Assembly (NCBI RefSeq): GCF_009936045.1
Contig: NZ_QWEQ01000008.1
Coordinates: 62,001-126,000, forward strand
From: Emergencia sp. 1XD21-10
GTDB taxonomy: Bacteria > Bacillota > Clostridia > Peptostreptococcales > Anaerovoracaceae
Reading direction: 5' to 3'
DNA length: 64,000 nt
The notes beneath the pieces were generated by a model. That model was not told where the DNA came from. It saw only the letters and a program-made list of their open reading frames with translations, and searched no databases. Shown here in pieces: positions 7,138-52,878 of the stretch. The position numbers and the translations under genes were made by a program. The first letter of the stretch is position 1. Each line of letters opens with the position of its first letter.

Positions 7138-8823
7138 ATGAAGAAAAAGCTAATCAGTGTAATCCTGGTTTTATCTGTCGTCATGACGATGTGTTTTGGC
7201 GCGATGGGAACCGTCTATGCAGGAGATCAGATGCAGAGAGTCAATCTGGCAGTCAGCGTAGATGGAAATGAACCTGTGACCGTAAAAGCGTACAATGCGT
7301 CCTATGCGTATAACATGTATGTTTCTGTCAAAGATCTATGCAGTGCTTTGAGTGGAAGCGAGAAGCAGATGAATTTTAAATACGATGAAGAAAGTGGCAA
7401 GTACATCTTCACCACGGGAAAAGCCTATGAAGCTGTCGGTGGAGAGAATGCAGCATTTGATGTAACATATAGCCAGAATCCAAAAGAAGGGCAGGACGAT
7501 ATTAGCCTGAGCACACCGGGAATGACAACGCCGACCAACATGGAGATCGACGGAAAGCCTTATGGCTACAGCGTGTATAAAGCTGGAGACGATATCTACA
7601 TGAAAATTTTAGATCTGGGATTTGCCTTTGGTCTGGAAACTAAGCTGACTGGGAAAAATGCACTGTCAGTGAATACGAAGAAGAACTTCAGCATCGACAT
7701 CGATCAGCTTGACAAAAATGGTTATTTCAGTTTTCTGCACGGTGCGATTGTCGGCAACGCTGACACGGGAGAAATCCTTTACGCAAGTAACGAAAATGTA
7801 CAGACCCAGCTGGCGTCCACTACAAAATTGATGACTTATCTGCTGGTGCAGGAAGCAATTGACAAAGGTAAAATTTCACTGGATACGAAAGTAAAAATTT
7901 CTGAAGCAGTGATGGAGGAAGCAAACTCCGAAGACAGCACCGGTATTTGCAGAAATAATTTTGAACTTGGAAAAGAAGTTTCTGTTCGTGATCTTTTGGC
8001 AGGATTCTTGTTGCCGTCTGCTAATGAGTGTGGAACTGCGCTGGCTGAAGCTGTCAGCGGATCCGAAGAGGCATTTGTAAAACTGATGAACAAAAGAGCA
8101 AAAGCACTGGGGCTTTCCTCAGCTGTATTTTACAATGTACATGGTCTTCCAAACTATGACAGCAGCGCAGTAACTGCAAAGCGTCAGAATTCCATGAGTG
8201 CAAAAGATATGTTCAAACTGGCATCCTATTTGCTGAAGAACTATCAGAAGGAACTGACTGCATTTACAGGACAGACACAAATTGAACTTCCAACCTTTGG
8301 AGAAGGTGTTGTTGCAACTTCAACTTATGGAACGCTGATTTACAATCTGGGTGCAATCGGACTGAAAACCGGAACAACCAACAGATCCGGTGCAAACATG
8401 GTTACTGCAGTGCCTGTGACAATCGAGGGTAAAACTCAGAATATTGTTTCTGTAATTTTCGGGGCAGAAGGCACAGCTGAGCGTTACGAAAAGAGTACTA
8501 TGCTGATTGAATATGCAAAACAGTACTATGCTGCAAAAGATGCGGTGAAAGCAGTCAAGGTTAAAGTTTCTACAAAGACTGGAACCAGCGGAATTACAAT
8601 TTCCTGGAAAAAGACAGGAAGCGCAGTAGACGGCTATCAGGTATACAGAGCAACGAAAAAGAACGGAACTTATAAGAAGATCGTTACAACAAAGAAACTC
8701 TCTGCGCTCAACAAGAGCACAACAAAGGGAAAAACTTACTATTACAAAGTAAGAGGCTACAAGAAAATTGACGGTCACACAGTTTATACACCATGGTCTG
8801 ACAAAGTAGCACAGAAACGGTAA
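7138..8823 (+). CDS. Secreted D-alanyl-D-alanine carboxypeptidase (peptidase S11) with FnIII tail
   Basis: A 561-residue exported protein. After a signal peptide (residues about 1-27) come two copper-amine-oxidase-N-like stalk segments (about 30-190). The S11 penicillin-binding domain follows with all three active-site motifs: STTK with serine at about residue 227, SAN at about 294 and KTG at about 410. The C-terminus is a fibronectin type III domain (about 476-561). It trims the terminal D-Ala from peptidoglycan pentapeptides outside the membrane. The start at 7138 is chosen because aaaggagatgatcaa precedes it; an upstream in-frame ATG at 7087 has no binding site and would spoil the signal peptide. 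The FnIII domain closely resembles that of the DUF4430 protein at 47533. Confidence 0.9.
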   Translation: MKKKLISVILVLSVVMTMCFGAMGTVYAGDQMQRVNLAVSVDGNEPVTVKAYNASYAYNMYVSVKDLCSALSGSEKQMNFKYDEESGKYIFTTGKAYEAVGGENAAFDVTYSQNPKEGQDDISLSTPGMTTPTNMEIDGKPYGYSVYKAGDDIYMKILDLGFAFGLETKLTGKNALSVNTKKNFSIDIDQLDKNGYFSFLHGAIVGNADTGEILYASNENVQTQLASTTKLMTYLLVQEAIDKGKISLDTKVKISEAVMEEANSEDSTGICRNNFELGKEVSVRDLLAGFLLPSANECGTALAEAVSGSEEAFVKLMNKRAKALGLSSAVFYNVHGLPNYDSSAVTAKRQNSMSAKDMFKLASYLLKNYQKELTAFTGQTQIELPTFGEGVVATSTYGTLIYNLGAIGLKTGTTNRSGANMVTAVPVTIEGKTQNIVSVIFGAEGTAERYEKSTMLIEYAKQYYAAKDAVKAVKVKVSTKTGTSGITISWKKTGSAVDGYQVYRATKKNGTYKKIVTTKKLSALNKSTTKGKTYYYKVRGYKKIDGHTVYTPWSDKVAQKR

Positions 8824-40909: not shown

Positions 40910-40938
40910 TGTACAAAGCTTTCCGCCTGTGCTATACT
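40910..40938 (+). promoter_or_regulatory. Putative promoter of the cobamide transport operon
   Basis: TGTACA (40910-40915), 17 bases, TATACT (40933-40938), just before the riboswitch. The -35 box is weak. Between this and the Rpn promoter (40802-40909) I see nothing else. Confidence 0.5.
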
Positions 40939-40974
40939 GTATATAAATCATTAGAAACAATTGAATGAAACTAT

Positions 40975-41160
40975 TTCATGTTCTGACAAGTTGTCAGCTA
41001 AGAGGGAAGCAGGTGTGAGTCCTGCGCGGTTACCGTCGCTGTATTGAAGGAATGCTGCTAAGAAACCACTAACGTTTCGTGATGAAACGTCGGGAAGGAT
41101 AGCAGTGTGATGATTTCTGAGCCAGAAGACCTGCATGGAGTACTGAAGCGGCTGACGGTT
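40975..41160 (+). promoter_or_regulatory. Cobalamin riboswitch 1
   Basis: The class I/II cobalamin aptamer is recognisable: AGAGGGAAGCAGGTG, then GAGTCCTGCGCGGT, CGCTGTA, a CCACT...GGGAAGG pairing region and the B12 box GCCAGAAGACCTGC (about 41120-41133). The segment normally CCCGCNACTGTA is altered to ACCGTCGCTGTA. A terminator 40 bases downstream suggests that ligand binding ends transcription early. It precedes the ECF/intrinsic-factor-like operon. Confidence 0.9.
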
Positions 41161-41196
41161 ATTGGCTAAGCAAGATAGAACATACAGAAAAAACGG

Positions 41197-41226
41197 GCTG
41201 TAGCACCATTGTGCTACAGCTTTTTT
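41197..41226 (+). terminator. Riboswitch 1 expression-platform terminator
   Basis: GCTGTAGCAC-CATT-GTGCTACAGC, a perfect ten-base stem, followed by TTTTTT. Confidence 0.9.
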
Positions 41227-41267: not shown

Positions 41268-42176
41268 ATGGAAAATAAAGGACTTGGTGAAACAGCGGAA
41301 TTTTGTTCCTTTCACCCACTTGTCAACATTACCTATTTTGCGCTGGTTGTGGGTATTACTATGTTTTCTATTTCACCGTATTTTTTGGCGGTGAGCCTGG
41401 TATTTTCCTGGAGCTATGCCTTCGTGCTCAAAGGCTTTAAGAGCCTGAAGCTAAACCTTGGGATTTCGCTGGCGATGCTCCTTGTCATGGTAATTATCAA
41501 CATGTTTTTCAACAACAATGGAGAAACGGTGCTGATGTATATCAATACCAACAGGATTACAGCGGAGTCTATCGTTTTCGGTATTGCATCTGCGGTTATG
41601 CTCATTGCCGTGGTTGTGTGGTTTTCCTGCTTCAACGTAATTATTACAGCGGATAAGCTGATTTACCTTTTCGGAAAAGTTGCACCAGTGCTGGGGCTGA
41701 CCCTGTCCATGATTTTCAGATTTATCCCCCTGCTCAAAAATCGCTTTGCGGAAATTACTCTGGGACAAAAATGCATGAAACGCAGTCATACCGAAGGAAA
41801 TTTAATCAGACGCGCCAGGCAGCTTTTAAAGGAAGTATCCATCTTAATCGCATGGTCATTGGAAGCATCTATTGAAAGTGCCGACTCTATGGAAGCCAGA
41901 GGTTATGGGCTGAAGGGCAGAACAAGCTTTCACCTCTTCAAGTTTTCGAGAAGAGATATTGCCATGCTGATATTGATGGCAGTGACGGCATCTCCGGTAT
42001 TTTATGGTGCTTATCTAGGGGTCACCAACATGTACTTTTATCCGAAACTGGTCCTTCCGCAGTTGGATTTGACAACGGCGTTGATTTTAATCAGCTACGC
42101 AATTTTATCAGCGGCACCGATGATTGTCGACATCATAGGAGAATATAAATGGAAACAATTAGACTTGAACATGTGA
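41268..42176 (+). CDS. ECF transporter coupling protein of the cobamide system
   Basis: A 302-residue EcfT-type membrane protein. Coupling motifs are SLEASIESADSMEARGYGLKGR near the end and a conserved FIPLLKNRFAEI helix. Unlike the general ecfT at 10805, it is encoded with its own ATPase and S component (group I style) under a cobalamin riboswitch. Starts after acaggaggtgagcc and overlaps the ATPase gene by 28 bases. Substrate inferred from the riboswitch and the downstream genes. Confidence 0.85.
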   Translation: MENKGLGETAEFCSFHPLVNITYFALVVGITMFSISPYFLAVSLVFSWSYAFVLKGFKSLKLNLGISLAMLLVMVIINMFFNNNGETVLMYINTNRITAESIVFGIASAVMLIAVVVWFSCFNVIITADKLIYLFGKVAPVLGLTLSMIFRFIPLLKNRFAEITLGQKCMKRSHTEGNLIRRARQLLKEVSILIAWSLEASIESADSMEARGYGLKGRTSFHLFKFSRRDIAMLILMAVTASPVFYGAYLGVTNMYFYPKLVLPQLDLTTALILISYAILSAAPMIVDIIGEYKWKQLDLNM

Positions 42177-43795
42177 CTTTTTCTTATCCCCTAGCGGAAG
42201 GTAACGCCTTAAAGGATGTAAGTTTTGCTATAGAGCCCAGCGAGTTTATCGTACTGTGCGGCAAGTCGGGCTGCGGAAAAAGCACTCTTTTGAAACAACT
42301 GAAGAAAAATTTGATTCCCTACGGCAATTTGCAGGGGCAGGTTTTGTACTGCGGTGAGCCTGTGGCAGATCTCGATGATCGGCGCAGTGTAACGGAAATT
42401 GGATTTGTACAGCAGAATCCGGACAATCAAATTGTTACGGATAAGGTTTGGCACGAGCTTGCCTTTGGCCTTGAAAGTCTGGGCATGGACAATGCGACGA
42501 TTAAGCGAAAAGTGGCAGAAATGGCAAGCTATTTCGACATCCAGGGCTGGTTTCGCAAAAATGTAAGCGAACTGTCTGGCGGACAGAAGCAGCTTCTCAA
42601 TCTGGCGTCTATTATGGCAATGCAACCGAAGCTTCTGATTCTGGACGAACCGACTTCCCAGCTGGATCCTATTGCGGCTTCAGAATTTTTATCAACCATA
42701 TATAAAATTAACAGAGATCTTGGTACGACCATTATTATTTCGGAACATCGCCTTGAGGAGATATTCCCTATGGCAGACAAAGTCATGGTTATGGACAAAG
42801 GTGAGGTTATCGCTTTTGATGAGCCGGGAAAAATTGGAGAATTCCTGTCCGGAGAATCAGAAGCGGATAGGCATCCAATGTTCTATGGGCTGCCTGCAGT
42901 GATGAGAATTTTTTCTAGTGTATTACCTGATGAGAAGAGCCCGCTGACCATCAGGGAGGGCAGACTTAAGGCGGCAGAACTGCTGGAGGGAAAGAGCCCG
43001 GAGGTTACAACACCAGTAGAAGAGCAGCCGTCAGAGTCTTCCGGCAAGGCAGTGATTACGGTGAAAGACCTTTGGTTTAAATACAGCAGAGAAAGCGGTG
43101 AAGTACTGCGGGGTCTGAATCTTTCCGTGGAAGAGAATCAGTGGTATTGTCTTCTTGGCGGAAATGGAACCGGAAAGAGCACGACCCTGAAAATGATTGC
43201 AGGCATGCTAAAGGCGCAGCGGGGCACGGTGAAAACTGACAGGGATATCATGTCTATGCTTCCGCAAAATCCCCAGGCGCTTTTTACAGAGATTACAGTG
43301 GAAGAGGAACTGCTGGAAGCTCTGCATTTTATGAAGATGTCAGACAGCCGCAGAATTGAGCATGTCAATGCTATGCTTAAGTTGATGGAAATAGAGCATC
43401 TTCGCAAGGCGAATCCTTACGATTTGTCCGGTGGAGAACAGCAGAGGCTGGCACTTGGTAAAATCCTTCTGCTGGAGCCTAAGATTTTGCTATTGGATGA
43501 GCCGACTAAGGGGCTTGATCCTTTTTTCAAGAGAACCCTTGCTGGGATTCTGCGAAAGCTGGTGGAAAGCGGCGTGACCATTTTTATGGTTTCCCACGAT
43601 GTAGAGTTTTGCGCAGAATATGCGGATAAGTGCGCAATGTTCTTTGACGGAGACATTGTATCTATTGGCAATCCGAAGACCTTCTTCTCCGGTAACAACT
43701 TTTACACCACCACAGCAAACAAGATTATTCGTCAGTGGAAGCCGGACGGTATTACCTGTGAGGAGGTGGCTACATGGCTAAAAGCTACAATTTAA
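42149..43795 (+). CDS. Fused double ECF ATPase of the cobamide system
   Basis: 548 residues carrying two complete ABC ATPase domains in one chain. First: Walker A GKSGCGKST, FVQQNPDNQIV, LSGGQKQLL, LLILDEPT. Second (from about residue 295): GGNGTGKSTT, MLPQNPQALF, LSGGEQQRL, ILLLDEPT. It replaces the separate EcfA and EcfA' subunits. Overlaps both neighbours, so the three transporter genes are translationally coupled. Confidence 0.92.
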   Translation: METIRLEHVTFSYPLAEGNALKDVSFAIEPSEFIVLCGKSGCGKSTLLKQLKKNLIPYGNLQGQVLYCGEPVADLDDRRSVTEIGFVQQNPDNQIVTDKVWHELAFGLESLGMDNATIKRKVAEMASYFDIQGWFRKNVSELSGGQKQLLNLASIMAMQPKLLILDEPTSQLDPIAASEFLSTIYKINRDLGTTIIISEHRLEEIFPMADKVMVMDKGEVIAFDEPGKIGEFLSGESEADRHPMFYGLPAVMRIFSSVLPDEKSPLTIREGRLKAAELLEGKSPEVTTPVEEQPSESSGKAVITVKDLWFKYSRESGEVLRGLNLSVEENQWYCLLGGNGTGKSTTLKMIAGMLKAQRGTVKTDRDIMSMLPQNPQALFTEITVEEELLEALHFMKMSDSRRIEHVNAMLKLMEIEHLRKANPYDLSGGEQQRLALGKILLLEPKILLLDEPTKGLDPFFKRTLAGILRKLVESGVTIFMVSHDVEFCAEYADKCAMFFDGDIVSIGNPKTFFSGNNFYTTTANKIIRQWKPDGITCEEVATWLKATI

Positions 43796-44706
43796 CGCAG
43801 GTAGAAGCAGCGCATCGTAAACGGACGCTGGTATCGGCAGCCCTGATTTTTCTGGCAATGCCTCTGACAATTTTTATCGGACTGCAGTTTGGAAAGAGCA
43901 AATTTATGATTGTCAGCGTGATTCTGCTGATTTATACCATGCTTCCTTTCTTCATGGTCTTTGAAAAGCGAAAGCCAAAAGCGAGAGAAATCGTTTTGAT
44001 TGCTATGATGTCGGCGCTGACAGTAAGTCTGCAGCTGTTTTGCCATATTTCACTGCCGCTGCAAATTGGCACGGCGATGATCATCATATCAGGTATTTCT
44101 CTTGGACCGGAGGCAGGTTTCCTCATTGGCGCAGTATCCCGGTTTGTCTGCAATTTTTATATGGGGCAGGGACCGTGGACACCGTGGCAGATGTTCTGCT
44201 GGGGGATTCTAGGATTTCTTGCAGGTTTAGCATTTAACAAGGTAGACCTGGATGAGCTGAAATCACGCCACTTTAAGCTAATTATGGGACCAGTACTGTG
44301 CGTGATATTCGGAATACTGATTGCATATGTATGCTATCAGATATGGCCGGGTACAGACGGAACCTTTTTCGGATGGAGACTTTATGTTTTCGGCTTTCTA
44401 GGACTTTTAGCGGGTGTGCTGCTGCAGCGAAAGAGACTGCCTGTAGACGGCGTGACTTTGGCAATATTTACCTTTGTTACAACCTTCGTCCTTTACGGAG
44501 GGATTATGAATATATGCGCACTGGTAACATCAGCGGGCGCACCTGGAGCAGCATTATCTATTGAGCAGATGAGACTTTTGTACATCTCAGGCGCACCTTA
44601 TGATGCGTACCACGGCAGTACAGCGGCGCTATGCGTGTTTCTGTTTGGCAACAGCATCATAAAGAAATTAGAGAGGATTAAAATAAAGTATGGAATATAC
44701 AAATAA
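43774..44706 (+). CDS. ECF S component, probable cobamide-binding subunit
   Basis: 310 residues with about eight hydrophobic segments, longer than most S components. It contains GISLGPEAGFLIGAVSRFVCNFYMGQGPWTPWQM, the motif seen in S components linked to cobalamin riboswitches (CbrT-like). Predicted to bind a cobamide or its precursor outside the cell and deliver it through the EcfT/ATPase above. Substrate is inferred from riboswitch control, not from binding residues. A 118-base gap without a clear promoter follows. Confidence 0.82.
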   Translation: MAKSYNLTQVEAAHRKRTLVSAALIFLAMPLTIFIGLQFGKSKFMIVSVILLIYTMLPFFMVFEKRKPKAREIVLIAMMSALTVSLQLFCHISLPLQIGTAMIIISGISLGPEAGFLIGAVSRFVCNFYMGQGPWTPWQMFCWGILGFLAGLAFNKVDLDELKSRHFKLIMGPVLCVIFGILIAYVCYQIWPGTDGTFFGWRLYVFGFLGLLAGVLLQRKRLPVDGVTLAIFTFVTTFVLYGGIMNICALVTSAGAPGAALSIEQMRLLYISGAPYDAYHGSTAALCVFLFGNSIIKKLERIKIKYGIYK

Positions 44707-44824
44707 TGGTTTTCGCAGGTTGACAGAGTGATTTGATGACAAGTCCTTGCTTTACAAGAATTTCTAAAAGAGTAAGAAAAGTGAAATCTGACTAGAAAGA
44801 TTTAGTTGTATTAAGGAGGAATCT

Positions 44825-46120
44825 ATGAAAAGAAAACTACTATCCTTGTTTGTAGCGTTTTGTCTGGTTTTGTCGTTCATGACAAGCTTTGCCTTCGCAG
44901 CGGACAGTGACACTCCGTACAATGAAGCACTTGAAAAAACGAAGACCTATATTACAAAGCAGGTGAATGAAAAGGGTGCTGTTTATGGAACAGAATGGAT
45001 GATTTTGGGACTGGCGCGTTCTGGTGCAAACTTGAATGACCAGCTTTTCAGCGATTACTATAACGATGTGGTGAAAACCGTCAAAGCATGTAAAGGTGTT
45101 CTTCATGCAAAAAAGTACACAGAGTATTCCAGAACGATTCTGGCGCTCAGTGCTATTGGCAAGGACCCAAGCAATGTAGGCGGTTATAATCTCCTGGAAA
45201 AGCTGGCGGATTTCAATCGGGTTAAGTGGCAGGGAATCAATGGAACGATTTGGGCGCTTATTGCACTGGATTCTAAGAATTATACAATTCCAAAGGTAAA
45301 AGGCGTGGAGGTGCAGACAACCAGAGATAAACTGATTCAGGAAATTTTGGGGCAGCAGCTTGCAGGCGGTGGTTTTGCACTGTCTGGAACGAAAGCTGAT
45401 GTGGATATTACGGCTATGGCACTGCAGGCACTGGCGCCGTATACTGGGCGCAGTGAAGTAAAGAAAGCTGTGGATAAGGCTGTGCAATGCCTGTCAGATA
45501 TGCAGAAAGATAACGGTACCTATGATTCATGGGGAATTGAGAACTCTGAAAGCATTGTACAGACTATCATAGCTATGACAGCACTGGGGATTGATCCGGG
45601 AAAAGATGAGCGTTTTGTTAAGAATGGCAAAAGTGCAGTTGATGGTCTGATGACCTTCTACGATGCACAGGGTGGATTCAGACATGTAAATACTGCTGCA
45701 GACGGCTACCCGCCGGTTATCAACGGCATGGCAACAGAGCAGGGGTATTATGGACTGGTGGCCTATGACAGATTTATAAACCAAAAGAACAGTCTTTTCG
45801 ATATGACAGATGGTGAAAAACCTCTGGCAAAACCTGCAAAGGCGGCAATTTCCTCACTGAAATCCTCTAAAGCAAAGACCTTTGTAGTAAAGTGGAAAAA
45901 GGTTACAAATGCCAGCGGATATCAGATTGTTTACTCGACAAACAGCAAATTCACGGCAAGCAAGACTGTGTCTGCTTCTAAGTCCACCTTGTCAAAGACT
46001 GTGAAGAGTCTGAAATCGGGAAAGACCTATTACGTTAAAGTTAGAGCTTACAGAACCGATGCCAAGGGAAATAAGCTTTACGGAAGCTACAGTTTGATAA
46101 AGAAGGTTAAAGTAAAATAG
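44825..46120 (+). CDS. Secreted alpha/alpha-toroid protein, intrinsic-factor-alpha-like, with FnIII
   Basis: 431 residues. Signal peptide about 1-25. Residues about 30-335 are repeated helical hairpins of the prenyltransferase/squalene-oxidase toroid type: WMILGLARSG, ILALSAIGKDPSNVGGYNLLEKLADF, GTIWALIALDS, GGGFALSGTKADVDITAMALQALAPY, TIIAMTALGIDP, EQGYYGLVAYDRF. The DVDITAMALQAL stretch resembles the VDTxAMA helix of the vertebrate intrinsic factor/transcobalamin alpha domain. The C-terminus (about 343-431) is a FnIII domain. It lies in the riboswitch operon before two DUF4430 genes. I infer a cobamide-capture role; terpene-cyclase chemistry is unlikely for a secreted protein without the DXDD acid motif. 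Confidence 0.8.
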   Translation: MKRKLLSLFVAFCLVLSFMTSFAFAADSDTPYNEALEKTKTYITKQVNEKGAVYGTEWMILGLARSGANLNDQLFSDYYNDVVKTVKACKGVLHAKKYTEYSRTILALSAIGKDPSNVGGYNLLEKLADFNRVKWQGINGTIWALIALDSKNYTIPKVKGVEVQTTRDKLIQEILGQQLAGGGFALSGTKADVDITAMALQALAPYTGRSEVKKAVDKAVQCLSDMQKDNGTYDSWGIENSESIVQTIIAMTALGIDPGKDERFVKNGKSAVDGLMTFYDAQGGFRHVNTAADGYPPVINGMATEQGYYGLVAYDRFINQKNSLFDMTDGEKPLAKPAKAAISSLKSSKAKTFVVKWKKVTNASGYQIVYSTNSKFTASKTVSASKSTLSKTVKSLKSGKTYYVKVRAYRTDAKGNKLYGSYSLIKKVKVK

Positions 46121-46121
46121 T

Positions 46122-47489
46122 ATGGATAAAGAATTTGAAAAGAAAGTCAGAATGAAGAGAATCCGGGCAGCGGCAGTGGCAATTATCGTCATTGCTATCG
46201 CAGCGTATCTGATTTATGACATGGATGTTGAGAAGGCTGACTACGGTGATTCTCTGCAGGAACAGATTACAGCTGCTCAGAGTCTTTACGATGAACAGAA
46301 GGAAAATGCTGGAAATGAAGAGGGGCAGTATGCTCCATATACACTGCTTGCCTTCTCGCAGCAGATAGACAAAGCCAAAGCAGTAGCGGAGGATGAGGCC
46401 AGTGAGTACAATGCAGAAAAGGACGCCTACGAACAGCTAAAAGATGATATCAAGGCTTTTAAAAAGGCTGATAACAGCGATGTGGTGCCTGCGGAAGAAG
46501 CAGAAAAACTGGCTAAAGAAAAGGGGGCTGAAAACTACACGGTTGATTTTAAAAAGGACAAAGAATTGTCTTATGTGATTGCAGGAGAAAATCTGAAAAA
46601 GCCAGTTACCATGAACCTGACTGCAGAGGAAGAAGGACCATACTATGGTCAGATTTCTGAGATTCTTGCGGAACTTTCACTGCAGGGGCAGGTGGTCTCT
46701 TTCTATCAGGACGGCAGCTTTGGCGGAAAAATTAGTGTGACTGCTCCGATGTATCTGGAAAAAGAGACAAAGGCGTATGCCTATAAAGTTGATTTGGAAA
46801 AAGGTACTTTAGAATATGTTTCCGATGCCAAGCTCTCTAAAGAGGGTCAGACGGCGACTTTCAGCGTGTCAGAAGGCGGCGATTACGTCATTGTCACCAA
46901 GAAAATACACAAGGACGGCAAGAAAAAGGCGCTGGATATCGAGGAACTGGAAGAAGTGGCACAGCAGGATGCTGAGAGCAATGATGGAAAAACAGGAGAT
47001 AAGAAAGGCAGCAGTTCTTCTTCCAACAAGGGTGGAAATTCTTCCAATGACAATCCTTCTGATAAACCAGAATCTAAGAATATTACCGTATCCATCGAAA
47101 TTCGCTGCGATACTTTGGCGCAGGATTTATCCAAACTGGAGAATCCGGCTCTTGAGGCATATGTGCCATCTGACGGTACGATTTTGCCGGCCACCAAGGT
47201 GACTGTAAAAGAGGGAAGCACAGTATTTGATGTGTTGAATAAAGTATGCCGGGATAAGAAAATTCACGTAGAGTCTTCTTATACACCAGCATTTGGTTCT
47301 TACTATATAGAAGGAATCAACTATCTCTACGAGTTTGACGGCGGCAATTTAAGCGGCTGGATGTACAAAGTAAACGGCTGGTTCCCGAATTATGGATGCT
47401 CTGCCTATACGCTGAAAGATGGAGATTCCATCGTGTGGGCATATACCTGTGATTCGGGTGAAGATGTAGGCCGCAAACTGCCAGAATAA
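46122..47489 (+). CDS. Membrane-anchored DUF4430 (transcobalamin-beta-like) protein
   Basis: 455 residues. A short cytoplasmic start, one membrane helix (about 16-33), an external charged helical region, a Ser/Gly/Asn linker (about 295-318) and a C-terminal DUF4430 domain (about 320-448): KEGSTVFDVLNKV, YIEGINYLYEFDGGNLSGWMYKVNGWFPNYG, LKDGDSIVWAYTCDSGEDVG. DUF4430 shares its fold with the small beta domain of intrinsic factor and transcobalamin. It starts one base after the preceding gene. Anchoring makes it a candidate surface dock for the secreted alpha-like protein next to the ECF importer. Confidence 0.82.
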   Translation: MDKEFEKKVRMKRIRAAAVAIIVIAIAAYLIYDMDVEKADYGDSLQEQITAAQSLYDEQKENAGNEEGQYAPYTLLAFSQQIDKAKAVAEDEASEYNAEKDAYEQLKDDIKAFKKADNSDVVPAEEAEKLAKEKGAENYTVDFKKDKELSYVIAGENLKKPVTMNLTAEEEGPYYGQISEILAELSLQGQVVSFYQDGSFGGKISVTAPMYLEKETKAYAYKVDLEKGTLEYVSDAKLSKEGQTATFSVSEGGDYVIVTKKIHKDGKKKALDIEELEEVAQQDAESNDGKTGDKKGSSSSSNKGGNSSNDNPSDKPESKNITVSIEIRCDTLAQDLSKLENPALEAYVPSDGTILPATKVTVKEGSTVFDVLNKVCRDKKIHVESSYTPAFGSYYIEGINYLYEFDGGNLSGWMYKVNGWFPNYGCSAYTLKDGDSIVWAYTCDSGEDVGRKLPE

Positions 47490-47532
47490 ATTTATTTATA
47501 AAGTATTGATATATATTTTAAGGAGGAAAAAA

Positions 47533-48618
47533 ATGAAAAGAAAATTAGTATCTTTGCTGCTGGTTTTAACATTAGTAGTATCTTCTGCAGCAGCGATGAC
47601 CTGCCTGTCCTGGGCAGCAGAGAAAGGCGCTACAGTTTATGTAACCATCAGCAATCGTGGTGATGTAGCTGTAACAGAAGAAGGCGAAGTCATGGCGGAC
47701 GTAGCCGTAAAGGTTTCAGAAGGCGCAACAGTGGACGACGTCATGAAGGCTTTCCATGAGGCATATTGCAAAGATGGATACAAGATGGAAGAGGGAAACT
47801 GGGGACCTTTTGTTTCAAAACTCTGGGGCGTTGAGACACAGAACACTTTGTTCTTTGTCAACGATGTAGCATTGGTAGAGACAATTTCCAATGTAAAACT
47901 TAAGGCTGGCGATAGAATCGTTGCGTCCATCAACGCAGATGATAAACTCTATTCTGACTTCTATAGCTATTTCAGCCCAAAGAAAACCACTGTCACCACA
48001 GGTGAAGATCTTTCCCTGACACTGAAAGGCTTCTCTGGCATGCTAGGAGGAGATGCAGCGGCTATTGCAAATGCACAGCTGGGTGTTGTAACTGATAAAG
48101 GCTTTGTGGCACTGGAAGGTGTTGTAACTGACGAAGCAGGAAATGCTGTCATTAAAATGGACCCGGCACAGTTTGAAGTTGGAAAGACTTACGTAATTTC
48201 TGCAAAGGGCACAGTAGCAACTACTGCAACCGATTGGAATGCAGAAGGAACCCCGACTGTGGATGTAGATGCTCCGATTATGGCGCCGGTTTGCAAAGTA
48301 ACCGTGCAGAGCAAGATTGCAGCAGGCGTAAAAGGAACTAAAATTACCAATCTGAAAGCAGCTGCCTCCAAAGGAAAGGTATCCCTGACCTGGAAGAAGA
48401 GCGCAGGCTATAAAGTAGACGGATATCAGGTATACAGATCTACTAAGAAATCCAGCGGATTTACCAAGATGTTTACTACCAAAGCAAGATCCTATAAGAA
48501 CACAAAATCTCTGAAAAAGGGAACTCGTTACTATTACAAAGTCAGAGGTTACAGAACTGTAGATGGAAAGACTGTTTATACTGAATGGTCGAACGTTGTT
48601 TCTGTAATTGCGAAATAA
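47533..48618 (+). CDS. Secreted DUF4430-like protein with FnIII tail
   Basis: 361 residues after starting at 47533 (aaggaggaaaaaa upstream; an ATG at 47506 lacks a binding site). Signal peptide about 1-29. Residues about 33-150 look like a second DUF4430-type beta domain (GATVDDVMKAFHEAYC, NTLFFVNDVALVETISNVKLKAGDRIVASI). A middle beta-rich part of unknown type follows, then a FnIII domain (about 275-361) close in sequence to that of the carboxypeptidase at 7138. Function inferred only from the operon. Confidence 0.75.
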   Translation: MKRKLVSLLLVLTLVVSSAAAMTCLSWAAEKGATVYVTISNRGDVAVTEEGEVMADVAVKVSEGATVDDVMKAFHEAYCKDGYKMEEGNWGPFVSKLWGVETQNTLFFVNDVALVETISNVKLKAGDRIVASINADDKLYSDFYSYFSPKKTTVTTGEDLSLTLKGFSGMLGGDAAAIANAQLGVVTDKGFVALEGVVTDEAGNAVIKMDPAQFEVGKTYVISAKGTVATTATDWNAEGTPTVDVDAPIMAPVCKVTVQSKIAAGVKGTKITNLKAAASKGKVSLTWKKSAGYKVDGYQVYRSTKKSSGFTKMFTTKARSYKNTKSLKKGTRYYYKVRGYRTVDGKTVYTEWSNVVSVIAK

Positions 48619-48633
48619 TTGAAAGAGATAATC

Positions 48634-49920
48634 ATGAAAAAAATATTAAGTGTATTTTTGTCCCTGACAATGGCTTTCACGCTAGTGCTTTCCTCAGCTG
48701 CTTCTGCTCATGGAGCAAGTGTCAGCTGGAAGACTGCTATGAGCAAGACCGAAAGCTATATGACAAAGAAACTGGCAAATCCGACTTATGGTGACGAATG
48801 GGCACTCCTTGGACTTGCCAGAAATGGTGCAGCGGTTACAGATGCTACATATAATAAGTACTATAAAAATCTCGGGAAAGTTTTGGCGGACAAAAAAGGT
48901 GTGCTGGATGCCCGTAAGTACAGTGAGTATTCCAAGGTAATTCTGACCCTGACTGCCATGGGAAAAGATCCTACAAATGTAGGCGGCTACAATCTTTTTG
49001 AAAAATTAGCAGACTTTGAAATGGTAAAGAAGCAGGGCATCAACGGACCTGTCTGGGCGCTGCTGGCACTGGACTGCGACGGCTATGAGATTCCAAAGGT
49101 AGAAGGGATTTCTCAGGTTACAAGCAGGGAACTTTTGATTGAGAATATTTTATCTCAAGAAAAAGAAGGTGGCGGTTTTGCTTTGACTGGCGATGCAGCG
49201 GATGTGGACATAACCGCTATGGTATTGTCTGCTCTGGCGCCATATCGGACGAGGACTGATGTTGGGACCGTTGTTGATCGCGCAATTGCTGTACTTTCTG
49301 AAAAGCAGATGGCAGACGGAGGTTTTGAAACTTTGAAGACTGCTAACGCAGAGAGCAACGTGCAGGTTATTGTAGCACTGACTTCTTTGGGAATAGACCC
49401 TCATAAGGACAAGCATTTTATTAAAAATGGCAAATCTGTTTTGGATGCTTTGCTGACTTATTATGCCACAGGCGGCGGATTTCGCCATGTAAACAAGTCT
49501 ACAGTCGGCTACGAGCCGGTAGTCAATGGTCTTGCGACGGCGCAGGGATATTATGGACTGACGGCATACAGCAGGTTTTTAAATGGGAAAAATACGCTCT
49601 ATGATATGAGAGATGGTAAAACCATTGCAAGACCAATAAAGCCGACAATTTCTTCACTGAAATCTTTAAAAACAAAACAGCTGACAGTGAAGTGGAAAAA
49701 GATTTCCGGCGTAAAGGGCTACCAGATTGTCTATGCCGCAAACAGCAAATTCACAGCGAGCAAGACAGCGACAGCTACTGCTTCCAGCGTGCAAAAGACT
49801 ATAAAAAGCCTGAAAAAGGGAAAAACCTATTATGTGAAAATCCGGGCCTATAAAGACGATGGCGAGGGCGGCAAACTCTATAGTGAGTATTGCAGCGTAA
49901 AGAAGGTAAAAGTGAAATAA
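48634..49920 (+). CDS. Second secreted alpha/alpha-toroid protein with FnIII
   Basis: 428 residues, a clear paralogue of the protein at 44825 over its full length: the same signal peptide, toroid repeats (WALLGLARNG, VGGYNLFEKLADFEMVKKQGINGPVWALLALD, GGGFALTGDAADVDITAMVLSALAPY, AQGYYGLTAYSRF) and FnIII tail. The ATG at 48634 is used; the TTG at 48619 would precede the basic start of the signal peptide. Last gene of the operon, so the order is alpha-beta-beta-alpha. Confidence 0.8.
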   Translation: MKKILSVFLSLTMAFTLVLSSAASAHGASVSWKTAMSKTESYMTKKLANPTYGDEWALLGLARNGAAVTDATYNKYYKNLGKVLADKKGVLDARKYSEYSKVILTLTAMGKDPTNVGGYNLFEKLADFEMVKKQGINGPVWALLALDCDGYEIPKVEGISQVTSRELLIENILSQEKEGGGFALTGDAADVDITAMVLSALAPYRTRTDVGTVVDRAIAVLSEKQMADGGFETLKTANAESNVQVIVALTSLGIDPHKDKHFIKNGKSVLDALLTYYATGGGFRHVNKSTVGYEPVVNGLATAQGYYGLTAYSRFLNGKNTLYDMRDGKTIARPIKPTISSLKSLKTKQLTVKWKKISGVKGYQIVYAANSKFTASKTATATASSVQKTIKSLKKGKTYYVKIRAYKDDGEGGKLYSEYCSVKKVKVK

Positions 49921-50207: not shown

Positions 50208-50233
50208 TATAGAAGTGAAAGGAGGTGCAGCCA

Positions 50234-50788
50234 GTGAATGAAGAGGAGATTTTGATGCTCTACTGGCAGAGAAATCAGAATGCCATAGCGCAAACAGAGG
50301 CACTTTATGGGAGTCAACTTTTACGGCTGGCGGAAAATATTTTGCATAGTCGTCAGGATGCCGAAGAGTGCGTCAGCGATACTTATTTGAAAGCGTGGAA
50401 TGCCATTCCGCCGAAAAGACCGAATCATTTGTTCGCATATTTGGCAAAAATCTGCAGGCTTACTTGTTTTGACAGACTGGACTGGAATCATGCGAAGAAG
50501 AGAAATTTTCCGGTGGTGGAATTATCTGTGGAGTTGGAGACGTGTATACCCGACGAATCTGTCCAGTGTAGTTTTACAGGGCAGGAAATCGGAGTGCTGC
50601 TCAGTTCTTTTGTGAAGCAGTTGCCTATTGGAAAAAGGCAGATGTTTTTGCGGCGTTACTGGCTGGGACAGTCTGTGGCAGAGCTAGCAAAAACCATGGG
50701 CATTAGTCAGAGTAAGGTGAAGACAGAACTGCATCGCACAAGAAAAGCGCTGCGCAGCTATTTAGAGAAAGAGGGGATTACAATATGA
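50234..50788 (+). CDS. ECF RNA polymerase sigma factor
   Basis: 184 residues with sigma region 2 (LYGSQLLRLAENILHSRQDAEECVSDTYLKAW) and region 4 (LLSSFVKQLPIGKRQMFLRRYWLGQSVAELAKTMGISQSKVKTELHRTRKALR). Starts with GTG at 50234 after aaaggaggtgcagcca; an earlier in-frame GTG at 50225 lies inside the binding site. Overlaps the next gene by four bases (ATGA). It lies between the two cobalamin-riboswitch units, but nothing shows a regulatory link to them. Confidence 0.92.
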   Translation: MNEEEILMLYWQRNQNAIAQTEALYGSQLLRLAENILHSRQDAEECVSDTYLKAWNAIPPKRPNHLFAYLAKICRLTCFDRLDWNHAKKRNFPVVELSVELETCIPDESVQCSFTGQEIGVLLSSFVKQLPIGKRQMFLRRYWLGQSVAELAKTMGISQSKVKTELHRTRKALRSYLEKEGITI

Positions 50789-51603
50789 ACGGAAAAGATT
50801 TATTGACAGGTTTGAGTTATATGCATGAGGATGTTATTTCGGATATTATTTCGGAAGCTTATGCGCCAGTGCATAAGAGAAAAGCACGCTCCAGAAATTT
50901 TTTAAAAGGGTTTGGATTGGCGGCAGCCTGTATCTGTATTGCGGTAACCGGTGTTTTTTTGCATAGACAGGGGTTGAATGCGCCGGCGACGGAACTGGTG
51001 CGGGTGGAACTTTCGGATATTGCAGTAAGTGAGCTTGCTAGTTTTAGCGCCGACAAAATCCACGTACCGAATAATTGCGTGGAAGAGGTTTGGGCGAAGG
51101 AAGAAATCAATGCATATTTCGGAAGGGATTTGTGGCCTGTGTATATTCCCAATGGGCTAGGAGAATCGCCTAATAATGATAAACAAAGCGTTCTTATGTT
51201 GGACGGCAAGCTATACTTGGATGAAATTTCTTTGGATTTTTACCATAGTTTTTATGAGGACGGTATGCCTATGATGACAAAAGGCGTGAATGCCGAGAGG
51301 GGATTTACTTTGAGTGCATGGAAAAAAGGGATGAGCAGAGACTACATGTGGATTAGTGAGGAACAGCAGCCTAAGACTTCCCTCATTGGAAATACGGAAG
51401 TCACCTTTGGGCACAGGGAGATGGAGTATGGACCTTATGATGAAAATACCCATGCGCCGGAGGGAACTTATGATTTATACGTAGCAACCTTCATAATCGA
51501 TGATGTTCACTACGAGTTTGTCAGTCATCAACTGCCGCTGTCTGAACTGGTGAAGGTGATTACATCTTTTATCTGTGAAACAGAGCAGGTTGTGGTGGAG
51601 TAG
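50785..51603 (+). CDS. Putative anti-sigma factor, single-pass membrane protein
   Basis: 272 residues: a 40-residue cytoplasmic start, one membrane helix (FGLAAACICIAVTGVFLH, about 45-62) and a roughly 200-residue external domain with no motif I recognise. Overlap with the sigma gene and the topology are those of membrane anti-sigma factors that sense the envelope. No zinc HxxxCxxC anti-sigma signature is present, so the sigma-binding part is not a classical ZAS domain. Confidence 0.65.
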   Translation: MNGKDLLTGLSYMHEDVISDIISEAYAPVHKRKARSRNFLKGFGLAAACICIAVTGVFLHRQGLNAPATELVRVELSDIAVSELASFSADKIHVPNNCVEEVWAKEEINAYFGRDLWPVYIPNGLGESPNNDKQSVLMLDGKLYLDEISLDFYHSFYEDGMPMMTKGVNAERGFTLSAWKKGMSRDYMWISEEQQPKTSLIGNTEVTFGHREMEYGPYDENTHAPEGTYDLYVATFIIDDVHYEFVSHQLPLSELVKVITSFICETEQVVVE

Positions 51604-51737: not shown

Positions 51738-51774
51738 AAAACTGTAATTCGATACAATCTCATGTTCCTTTTTG

Positions 51775-51945
51775 CGATAGATTCTGATGCGCAAGGAGGC
51801 TAAGAGGGAAACAGGTGCAAATCCTGTGCGGTCCCGCCACTGTATTGGAGGAGTTTCTTCTAAGGTGCCACTGGAATATTTCTGGGAAGGCAGAAGAAAT
51901 GCTGAGTCCTGAGTCAGGAGACCTGCATGAGAGGAATTTCCGGAT
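51775..51945 (+). promoter_or_regulatory. Cobalamin riboswitch 2
   Basis: A consensus aptamer: AAGAGGGAAACAGGTG, CAAATCCTGTGCGG, CCCGCCACTGTA, GCCACTGG...GGGAAGG, and the B12 box GAGTCAGGAGACCTGC (about 51911-51926). It matches the consensus better than riboswitch 1 and controls a single gene. Confidence 0.95.
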
Positions 51946-51983
51946 TCGGCGGTGAACCGAACCTGAAAAAGAACAGCAAATAC

Positions 51984-52013
51984 GGGCTGTGGGTTATCCA
52001 CAGCCCTTTTTTT
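51984..52013 (+). terminator. Riboswitch 2 expression-platform terminator
   Basis: GGGCTGTGG-GTTAT-CCACAGCCC and seven T, so cobamide excess would stop transcription before cbiR. Confidence 0.92.
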
Positions 52014-52110
52014 AAAGCGTGGATGACCGGCTTTTCATTCTTTTTTCATACAGATTGAGGCAGGTGTCGTCAGCCTGCCTCAACTATTTTTTGAAAGGAA
52101 CCTAGAAGGT

Positions 52111-52878
52111 ATGAAGGATAAAATTTATATCGCGACATTTTCGGAAAACGCTGTAGAGGTGATTGCCAGATATGGTCTTGGAATAGAGCTTAACGACATT
52201 TGTATATCAGAAGCGTTGGACGCCGACCAGGAAGAAAATACTATCAGAGCAATGAGAAAGGAAATCTCTGACTCACAGGCAAAAAATGTAATTATGCACG
52301 GACCGTTTACGGAGATTATTCCAGCTTCTATCGACCACAGAGCGGTGGAGCTGGGACTTACCAGGCTTAATGAAGCCTACCGAATGTGCGAAAAATTGGG
52401 CGTGAATCGAATGGTTGTGCACAGCGGATATCAGCCGCTTCTATATTTCAAAGAATGGCACCACGAGAAATCTCTTTATTTCTGGAAAAAGTTCTTAGAG
52501 GATAAGTCAGAGGATTTTACTATTTATATCGAAAATGTTTTTGAAGATGAACCGTATATGATGAAGCAGCTGTTAGAGGAACTTGACGACCCGCGGGCAC
52601 GCATTTGTCTTGATGTAGGCCATGCCAATGTCTGCACCCTGCCGGAATACGATATCTTTGACTGGCTTTCCGTGCTGGGACCTTATATCGGGCATTTTCA
52701 TCTGCATAACAATGATGGAATGGCAGATTCCCATGGACCTGTTCATCAGGGGGCTATGGATATGAAAAAAGTTTTGCAGGAAATAGCAAGGCACTGCGGG
52801 CAAGATGTAACCATGACCATTGAAAGCAGGCAGTGTGCGGAAAGTGCTGCATGGCTTTGTCAATATTTTCGTGCATAG
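52111..52878 (+). CDS. cbiR: AP-endonuclease-2-superfamily TIM barrel, probable cobamide-remodelling enzyme CbiR
   Basis: 255 residues. TIM-barrel metal-site blocks of the sugar-phosphate isomerase / AP endonuclease 2 superfamily: NVIMHGPFTEI, RMVVHSGYQP, YIENVFED, ICLDVGHANV, HFHLHNNDG and TIESR. CbiR, described in Akkermansia, belongs to this superfamily and hydrolyses the lower-ligand nucleotide loop of cobamides so that another base can be attached. Exclusive control by a cobalamin riboswitch makes that identity much more likely than a sugar isomerase. Later steps (cobU, cobT, cobS, cbiB type) are not in this window. Confidence 0.75.
   Translation: MKDKIYIATFSENAVEVIARYGLGIELNDICISEALDADQEENTIRAMRKEISDSQAKNVIMHGPFTEIIPASIDHRAVELGLTRLNEAYRMCEKLGVNRMVVHSGYQPLLYFKEWHHEKSLYFWKKFLEDKSEDFTIYIENVFEDEPYMMKQLLEELDDPRARICLDVGHANVCTLPEYDIFDWLSVLGPYIGHFHLHNNDGMADSHGPVHQGAMDMKKVLQEIARHCGQDVTMTIESRQCAESAAWLCQYFRA

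Follow-up and report, generated by a model that had tools for sequence, protein, structure and literature searches.

A riboswitch-preceded operon of Emergencia sp. 1XD21-10 encoding a CbrT-like ECF transporter and putative transcobalamin-like surface proteins

To our knowledge, little is known about the surface capture of cobamides by Gram-positive bacteria. An operon of Emergencia sp. 1XD21-10 (contig NZ_QWEQ01000008.1) raises the question of whether proteins resembling the two domains of the vertebrate cobalamin carriers could perform this capture for an ECF transporter. No description of cobamide uptake by toroid and DUF4430 proteins in bacteria was found among the matches listed from the open-access literature, and a passage in PMC5997447 describes as scarce what is known of how B12-requiring prokaryotes take up cobalamin. 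If the reading developed below is true, an ECF transporter with a riboswitch-linked receptor like intrinsic factor or transcobalamin would go some way towards closing that gap, bacterial DUF4430 would gain a function, and an ECF importer would be seen to have its own extracellular binding proteins. Competition with host intrinsic factor would likewise become a question where such bacteria inhabit guts, and the origin of the vertebrate B12 carriers would become testable.

An ECF transporter operon behind a cobalamin riboswitch

All coordinates are those of the window, the whole 64,000-nucleotide stretch of DNA analysed, and all features located by them lie on the plus strand. From 41268 to 49920 the gene order is EcfT, double EcfA, S component, toroid-1, an anchored DUF4430 protein, a DUF4430 protein with an fn3-like part, and toroid-2. 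This content and order agree with the initial annotation, which described one operon with an ECF transporter and four further proteins behind a cobalamin riboswitch. The riboswitch (40961-41152) matches RF00174 with 94.6 bits (E 2.9e-22), passing the covariance-model gathering score of 31.5, and ends shortly before 41268, where that annotation had the operon begin. A terminator-like hairpin with a 12-pair stem and a T run (41195-41222) lies between the aptamer and EcfT and is probably the expression platform; the region holds 12 such hairpins against 9.3 expected. A weak promoter-like site precedes the aptamer (40910-40938; 9/12 in a consensus scan, with TG before the second hexamer), the same scan finding 30 sites in the region where 19.2 are expected.

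EcfT, a CbiQ-like transmembrane coupling subunit (41268-42176; PF02361, E 1.3e-8), and EcfA, with two ATPase domains in a single chain (42149-43795; ABC_tran in two stretches, TIGR04520 E 1.1e-102), provide ECF-type partners within the operon for a CbrT-like, cobalamin-type S component (43774-44706; PF07155, E 1.1e-18). Searched singly against the PDB, the S component has CbrT (6fnp) as its top match (E 7.7e-6), and its family profile places 6fnp first (E 7.4e-18) and RibU next (E 1.9e-5). The profile match upholds the cobalamin assignment of what had been proposed to be a transporter dedicated to cobamide. CbrT is a proven B12 S component; passages in PMC5997447 report that it binds by itself at the nanomolar level and name no such extracellular partner proteins. 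The homology spans nearly the entire CbrT chain, and the ECF-CbrT system of Lactobacillus delbrueckii also shares EcfT and EcfA with that of Emergencia. Unlike in that system, an ECF module with a double ATPase is encoded inside the Emergencia operon, the S component has 310 residues as against 182 in the CbrT chain, and the operon adds proteins that are predicted to be extracellular.

BtuFCD couples an ATP-driven importer to a binding protein that supplies it from outside the membrane. The proposed Emergencia system would perform the same task, although its operon encodes a different, ECF type of transporter. Peripla_BP_2 (PF01497, the BtuF-type family) has no match at E≤0.001 in this genome, which is 98.66 percent complete in 116 contigs; among 14 control genomes, 13 have a PF01497 match. 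A further comparison is offered by the DUF4465 proteins and BtuG, a Bacteroides surface B12 lipoprotein, which would be alike in capturing B12 by surface or high-affinity binders and unlike in that Bacteroides are not Gram-positive and the families, judged by name alone, differ. Passages in PMC6143338 and PMC13398666 describe such surface-exposed or high-affinity B12-binding proteins in Bacteroides, and one in PMC11477304 describes a BtuCDF-like system under cobalamin riboswitch control in Clostridioides difficile.

Toroid and DUF4430 proteins compared with vertebrate carriers

Toroid-1 (44825-46120) and toroid-2 (48634-49920, in a frame that opens earlier at a TTG at 48619) each consist of a signal-like N-terminus, judged by eye, a toroid and a C-terminal fn3 that scores over its cut-off. 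The two are 57 percent identical across the toroid, are the two toroid matches of this genome, and match SQHop_cyclase_C below its cut-off (E 5.5e-5 and 0.0062), with toroid-2 also matching NF053823 in part. The AlphaFold model of toroid-1 (pLDDT 90.6) is mainly helical before the fn3 part, and a Foldseek search of the PDB ranks transcobalamin 7qbe first (E 5.4e-5, TM 0.44), with more transcobalamin chains at ranks 12, 17, 18, 29, 32 and 33. The fold match is loose (TM 0.41-0.45 by query length, rmsd 5-20 Å), and because terpene cyclases, including drimenyl diphosphate synthase, match as well, the likeness to the carriers is at the level of the fold only. A toroid profile searched against the PDB at E≤10 matches squalene cyclases and no cobalamin carriers. 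The Pfam matches do not include PF01122, which we take to be the eukaryotic cobalamin-binding family. Of the earlier assignment of the intrinsic factor/transcobalamin alpha fold to both toroids, that of toroid-1 is upheld by its model, with the correction that in sequence the toroids resemble squalene cyclases rather than intrinsic factor.

The DUF4430 protein encoded at 46122-47489 carries an N-terminal hydrophobic helix (by eye), the predicted membrane anchor, and its domain lies near 47196-47471 (PF14478, E 3.9e-21). The second, at 47533-48618, is predicted to be exported, starting at an ATG preceded by AGGAGG with an N-terminus that looks signal-like by eye. Its DUF4430 match (PF14478, E 3.4e-5) is barely above the cut-off (24.6 versus 23.8 bits) and its fn3 match barely under (23.6 versus 25), so that PF14478 exceeds its cut-off in both proteins that had been called DUF4430, in one of them marginally. 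Genome-wide, three of the four DUF4430 matches are found downstream of a B12 riboswitch at a distance of no more than 7 kb. According to a passage in PMC4350170, TCN proteins carry DUF4430 C-terminally. The match of a DUF4430 profile to transcobalamins is weak (E 0.06-0.87) and stands amid other weak matches; the profile covers the domain only, as a fuller profile was swamped by low-complexity linkers and gave meaningless PDB matches.

The split two-part arrangement that had been claimed is borne out in the window, where toroid and DUF4430 are separate genes. Elsewhere the two are joined in one frame, in either domain order, at 26 of 79 Bacillota loci taken from the best 80 of 390 candidates. 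These same loci contain 27 two-domain frames in total, among them the two parts of a single split gene (L101), and in five of their 19 toroid-to-DUF4430 junctions the gap is 40-55 residues. For the fusion of Anaerovorax sp. IOR16, modelled with pLDDT 88.1 and pTM 0.85, PDB ranks 1-15 are full-length transcobalamin, haptocorrin and intrinsic factor only (E 4e-10 to 2.5e-8), ranks 16-17 are the transcobalamin beta domain, and the following match has E 0.011. The TM-score of this ligand-free model against the carriers is 0.34-0.41 and the rmsd 19-21 Å; the model therefore fails to reproduce the domain pose of holo transcobalamin. A profile of the fused toroid-DUF4430 sequences finds a carrier in the PDB (5no0, E 1.9) through the DUF4430 part alone. 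Intrinsic factor, transcobalamin and haptocorrin share with the modelled bacterial fusion the toroid and DUF4430/beta folds in that order. They differ from the Emergencia proteins, whose halves are on separate genes with one membrane-anchored, in being single chains with the toroid first; the bacterial toroid sequences do not match theirs, and ligand binding in bacteria is putative.

Linkage of the two modules in other Bacillota

The 79 named Bacillota loci were fetched by toroid alone from the best 80 of 390 candidates, using a 12-row toroid profile, as a 35-row alternative was too diverse. They lack full independence: one assembly contributes four of them and another two, every 20-mer of the shorter of L121 and L123 recurs in the longer, and for L102 and L104 the shared fraction is 73 percent. 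Within this set, 76 of 79 loci have a DUF4430 domain no further than 6.5 kb from the toroid, whether fused or encoded separately. When the nearest scored gene within 1.2 kb is considered for the 79 toroid genes, a DUF4430 gene comes next after 59 and immediately before 16, is on neither side of three, and in one case the toroid frame was not recovered. A B12 riboswitch lies upstream on the toroid strand at 55 of the 79 loci (51 at a stricter threshold), 52 of them by HMM at E≤0.01 (48 at E≤1e-4) and three with RF01482 AdoCbl riboswitches. The co-occurrence with B12 riboswitches for which the initial annotation had suggested a survey is therefore present beyond this genome. No such riboswitch was found upstream on the toroid strand at the other 24 of these 79 loci, in some of them because the contig ends. 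The riboswitch profile was run with nhmmer, regular expressions having found just 6-7 of 51 known sites. Its cross-validation recovery of 51/51 is optimistic because the excised riboswitches come from one bacterial family, and the shuffled controls preserved base composition only.

We further considered listed matches across genomes, using the best 76 toroid places of a longer list and 150 places each, again of longer lists, for DUF4430 and the riboswitch; the linkage counts are therefore lower bounds. Within 10 kb of a riboswitch, at least 49 of the 150 listed DUF4430 matches lie downstream on the same strand and at least one downstream on the opposite strand, with at least 16 upstream on the same and at least five upstream on the opposite strand. 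Similarly, for at least 61 of the best 76 toroid places a DUF4430 among those listed is found no more than 3 kb away on the same strand, and for at least three on the opposite strand. Among the matches listed, DUF4430 is present in at least 60 and an S component in at least 53 of 61 toroid genomes, and a riboswitch in 53 of 61 genomes with a toroid versus 38 of 58 without (odds ratio 3.5), so that toroid-riboswitch co-occurrence per genome is only moderate. Linkage of toroid and DUF4430 to a CbrT-type transporter is seen in Clostridia and in Paenibacillus.

Domains of the fn3, Ig-like and SLH types are found in toroid and DUF4430 proteins. Frames of more than 1000 residues contain many of the DUF4430 copies. 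The very large surface proteins with toroids and DUF4430 may have other roles.

A proposed uptake mechanism and its alternatives

We consider it likely that these genes specify riboswitch-controlled cobamide uptake, in which surface capture by toroid and DUF4430 proteins feeds a CbrT-type ECF importer. A low intracellular pool of adenosyl-cobamide would leave the aptamer empty and the terminator unformed, and the operon would be transcribed, as the riboswitch class and the hairpin suggest. The toroid proteins (alpha-domain-like) and DUF4430 proteins (beta-domain-like) would then be exported, with one DUF4430 protein tethered in the membrane, and together would form a two-part clamp binding a cobamide outside the cell. 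The tethered protein would bring the cobamide to the CbrT-type S component, and the ECF module would use ATP to drive it into the cytoplasm. We infer export, cobamide binding, the clamp geometry and the hand-over; overall, the interpretation in the initial annotation is partly supported. On balance, though with less assurance, we favor a broader reading in which a surface transcobalamin is widespread in Bacillota, its split or fused modules, membrane-tethered or attached through surface domains such as SLH, catching cobamides and feeding a CbrT-type importer, and in which bacteria share the architecture of the vertebrate carriers and may be where it came from.

Alternatively, DUF4430 alone could be the receptor for the S component, with the toroids accessory (in storage, scavenging from the medium or with another partner) and no two-part clamp. 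Among the matches listed, DUF4430 occurs without a toroid match in 13 of 71 S-component genomes (five have neither), a toroid match is absent from 22 of 82 DUF4430 genomes, and G077 has an ECF operon (L064) with DUF4430 alone. This is the sole toroid-free example kept after L061, where a toroid was found 1.6 kb past the end of the locus, and L073, whose genome has toroids on another contig, were dropped. The isolated human transcobalamin beta domain, by the description of 5np4, was also solved with cyanocobalamin. We nevertheless find this reading unlikely given the near-constant presence of DUF4430 in listed toroid genomes, its position as the next (59) or previous (16) scored gene for the 79 toroid genes of the loci fetched by toroid, which are the best 80 of 390 candidates, together with the repeated fusions, five of 19 junctions having a 40-55-residue gap. 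Less probable still is the import and binding by the exported proteins of another B12-regulated cargo, such as cobalt, a corrinoid precursor like cobinamide, or a lower-ligand base. Cobalt uptake is also under B12 riboswitches, one of which precedes CbiM/CbiQ in this genome, and a passage in PMC5997447 reports that CbrT takes up cobinamide too; against this, the S component is far closer to CbrT than to other solved S components and PDB ranks 1-17 for the fused module are all cobalamin carriers. A cobalt transporter reading of the operon itself was rejected because that separate CbiM/CbiQ transporter is encoded elsewhere.

It is highly improbable that toroid and DUF4430 serve as generic scaffolds or adhesins at the surface and are in the B12 regulon by chance: the fn3, Ig-like and SLH domains and the long frames would fit such a role, but the linkage to B12 riboswitches is specific for strand and direction and extends to the CbrT-type transporter in two groups. 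DxDD is the catalytic motif of class II cyclases, and the top sequence matches of the toroids are squalene-hopene and related cyclases, with drimenyl diphosphate synthase among the fold matches of toroid-1. Exported squalene/terpene cyclase-type enzymes would account for these matches, yet both window toroids have DxDI at the acidic stretch aligned with DxDD of squalene-hopene cyclase, their N-termini are signal-like by eye, and their partners and regulation are B12-related. A squalene-cyclase function was rejected given this motif, predicted export and context, and we give it next to no weight.

A second cobalamin riboswitch (51745-51944; RF00174, 116.7 bits), followed by a terminator-like hairpin at 51984-52006, marks a separate unit in the same regulon as the ECF operon. 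This unit encodes a CbiR-like TIM-barrel protein (52111-52878; NF041277, E 5.7e-11, 42.4 bits and thus below the cut-off of 105), for which the sequence match suggests a possible role in cobamide remodelling.

The riboswitch-controlled operon and its transporter

A cobalamin riboswitch (RF00174, 94.6 bits) at 40961-41152 is followed by a terminator-like hairpin with a 12-pair stem (41195-41222, from the terminator scan), which lies between the riboswitch and a co-directional gene run at 41268-49920. The run encodes EcfT, a double EcfA, the S component, toroid-1 with fn3 (44825-46120), two DUF4430 (PF14478) proteins, the first membrane-anchored and the second exported and bearing an fn3-like part, and toroid-2 with fn3 (48634-49920). 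The DUF4430 assignment of the exported protein barely exceeds the Pfam cut-off. Neighboring genes overlap or are at most about 45 bases apart; the one wider interval, 118 bases from the S gene to toroid-1, contains no terminator in the scan. A hairpin and T run 3' of toroid-2 were read by eye and are absent from the scan's output. This layout bears out the initial annotation, which joined an ECF transporter with two toroid and two DUF4430 proteins in one operon behind a cobalamin riboswitch.

The assignment of the transporter to cobalamin is also supported. Searched singly against the PDB, the S component matches CbrT (6fnp) best (E 7.7e-6), and a 20-member S-component profile matches almost the entire CbrT chain at E 7.4e-18, whereas riboflavin, folate and other S components match the same profile at 1.9e-5 or weaker. 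CbrT is described, from experiment, as an S component for cobalamin and cobinamide (PMC5997447). The genome has no match to the BtuF-type binding-protein family PF01497 at E<=0.001, and the cobalt genes CbiM and CbiQ sit elsewhere, behind their own riboswitch. Because corrin-ring genes (CbiD, CbiK and two tetrapyrrole methylases) are also present, the Emergencia cell may both synthesize and salvage cobamides.

Conservation of the gene group

The initial annotation had called for a survey of toroid and DUF4430 genes with B12 riboswitches in other Clostridia, and the co-occurrence extends beyond this genome. Seventy-nine named Bacillota loci, fetched by toroid alone as the best of 390 candidates, a few of them near-duplicates or from a shared assembly, come from taxa including Emergencia, Clostridium aminobutyricum, Anaerovorax, Terrisporobacter, Romboutsia, Tissierella, Christensenella, Desulfotomaculum and Paenibacillus. 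On the same strand and no more than 6.5 kb from where the toroid matches, a DUF4430 domain is found in 76/79 loci, EcfA in 65/79, EcfT in 61/79 and the S component in 52/79, with all four together in 49/79. An nhmmer riboswitch model, which gave 0 matches in shuffled loci, detects a same-strand site ahead of the toroid in 52/79 (48/79 at E<=1e-4) and sites on the opposite strand in 4 of the 79; of the eleven nhmmer sites in seven loci, Rfam confirmed ten. When Rfam was applied to all 27 loci lacking an upstream nhmmer site, an RF01482 AdoCbl riboswitch was found directly upstream in three more (L118:8973-9107, L102:8455-8599 and L104:2941-3085); L097 has a riboswitch on the other strand, and L110 has one downstream of its toroid. 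Overall, a B12 riboswitch lies upstream of the toroid in 55/79 loci (51 at the stricter nhmmer threshold) and is missing there in 24/79. Since RF01482 replaces RF00174 in L118, L102 and L104, the same kind of gene is driven by different B12 aptamer families.

Among 119 genomes of the window's family, 82 have DUF4430, 91 riboswitches, 61 toroids and 71 the S component. DUF4430 is found in 60 of the 61 toroid genomes (odds ratio 98), the S component in 53 (odds ratio 15) and a riboswitch in 53 (odds ratio 3.5); because the genomes are related, p values overstate this co-occurrence. Among the 150 DUF4430 matches listed, at least 49 follow a same-strand riboswitch by no more than 10 kb, against at least 1 downstream with the strands opposed, 16 upstream with the strand shared and 5 upstream with the strands opposed. 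The best 76 toroid places of a longer list, set against the riboswitch matches listed, give at least 34, 1, 8 and 1 for these respective placements. One relative (L042:11609-13661, G109:C4) carries a tandem pair of 138-aa DUF4430 proteins, with one B12 riboswitch ahead of each.

Folds and natural fusions

The claim that the toroid and DUF4430 proteins share the folds of intrinsic factor and transcobalamin holds for the DUF4430 family and for the toroid-1 model, but not for the toroid sequences. The C-terminal domain of transcobalamins is reported as DUF4430 (PMC4350170), and a bacterial DUF4430 profile has 18 weak matches in the PDB that include transcobalamins (E 0.06-0.87). A 35-row toroid profile instead matches squalene-type cyclases in the PDB (E 8e-16), with no cobalamin carrier at E<=10. 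For the predicted toroid-1 structure (pLDDT 90.6, pTM 0.77), the top-ranked PDB entry is a transcobalamin chain (E 5.4e-5). Other transcobalamin chains follow at ranks 12, 17, 18, 29, 32 and 33, among terpene cyclases and, where the C-terminal domain is matched, fn3 proteins. The match is loose, given a TM of 0.41-0.45 (query length) and an rmsd of 5-20 A. Both window toroids share an NCBIfam SCO2321_fam stretch (E 7.5e-11 in toroid-1 and 2.2e-9 in toroid-2, well short of the cut-off), a hint of distant relatives in actinobacteria.

Toroid and DUF4430 domains also occur in single proteins: 13 among 40 chosen loci from this genome and its relatives, and 27 frames in 26 of the 79 named loci. Two of these frames are halves of one gene, a Cellulosilyticum ruminicola surface gene (L101:6877-9785) apparently split inside the toroid into slightly overlapping frames, which appears to be a frameshift or draft-sequence error. 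In 5/19 toroid-to-DUF4430 junctions the gap between the domains is just 40-55 residues, resembling the domain layout of animal carriers. The fusion module of a protein from a relative, Anaerovorax sp. IOR16, that also carries an SLH domain was modeled as a single chain, the window's toroid and DUF4430 proteins being separate. This model (pLDDT 88.1, pTM 0.85) matches exclusively full-length transcobalamin, haptocorrin and intrinsic factor at ranks 1-15 (E 4e-10 to 2.5e-8, over 450-471 alignment columns), then the transcobalamin beta domain at ranks 16-17, after which E is 0.011. With an rmsd of 19-21 A and a TM of 0.34-0.41, its domains are posed unlike those of ligand-bound carriers, which could reflect an open apo pose, a wrongly predicted pose or a different arrangement.

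Proposed capture model and neighboring genes

The most likely reading is a riboswitch-relieved, exported toroid/DUF4430 clamp that feeds a CbrT-like S component. When cobamide is low, termination in the leader would be relieved and the toroid and DUF4430 proteins would leave the cell, except that one DUF4430 protein would remain membrane-bound; the two parts would close on a cobamide, and the tethered DUF4430 part would pass it to the S component. The strongest rival takes DUF4430 as the receptor and the toroid as an accessory, because 13 of the 71 S-component genomes carry DUF4430 but give no toroid match (a further 5 lack DUF4430 as well) and the human beta domain has been solved alone with cyanocobalamin (title of 5np4). 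The ECF operon at L064:2423-6956, in a genome without any toroid match (G077), includes S component and DUF4430 and is possibly a minimal form of the system.

The clamp system would combine a CbrT-type ECF importer with extracellular partners resembling intrinsic factor and transcobalamin. Among the open-access matches listed, we found no description of toroid/DUF4430 cobamide uptake in bacteria, and any claim of novelty extends only to the open-access library searched. In the portions available of the six open-access papers mentioning DUF4430, bacterial B12 uptake is not a subject, PMC4350170 concerning animal carriers. For Clostridioides difficile, the systems that the relevant part of a review puts under cobalamin riboswitch control are limited to cob/cbi, CbiMNQO and a BtuCDF-like one (PMC11477304).

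A second, stronger cobalamin riboswitch (51745-51944, 116.7 bits) is followed first by a terminator-like hairpin and then by a TIM-barrel gene related to that of the cobamide-remodeling protein CbiR (region 51745-52878; NF041277 E 5.7e-11, below the family cut-off), which may point to cobamide remodeling beside the uptake operon. Between toroid-2 and this riboswitch (50225-51603) lie a sigma-70 family gene and a gene overlapping it by 4 bases, whose sole Pfam match has E 0.07 and which is anti-sigma-like by eye. Elsewhere in the genome, near a contig end, a 986-aa protein with Big_3 (bacterial Ig) and DUF4430 domains is encoded behind a riboswitch (L075:231-3497) and is probably a further surface member of the B12 regulon. 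Among other loci, a B12 riboswitch stops 12 bases short of a frame of the xanthine/uracil-permease family (L077:5750-7298), which is an unexpected target, and a radical SAM/SPASM protein gene lies behind another (L078:4222-5918). At L076:6332-7417, a frame that strongly matches HNH_repeat (a homing-endonuclease associated repeat) just after a riboswitch (7478-7657) overlaps the start of the CbiK frame.
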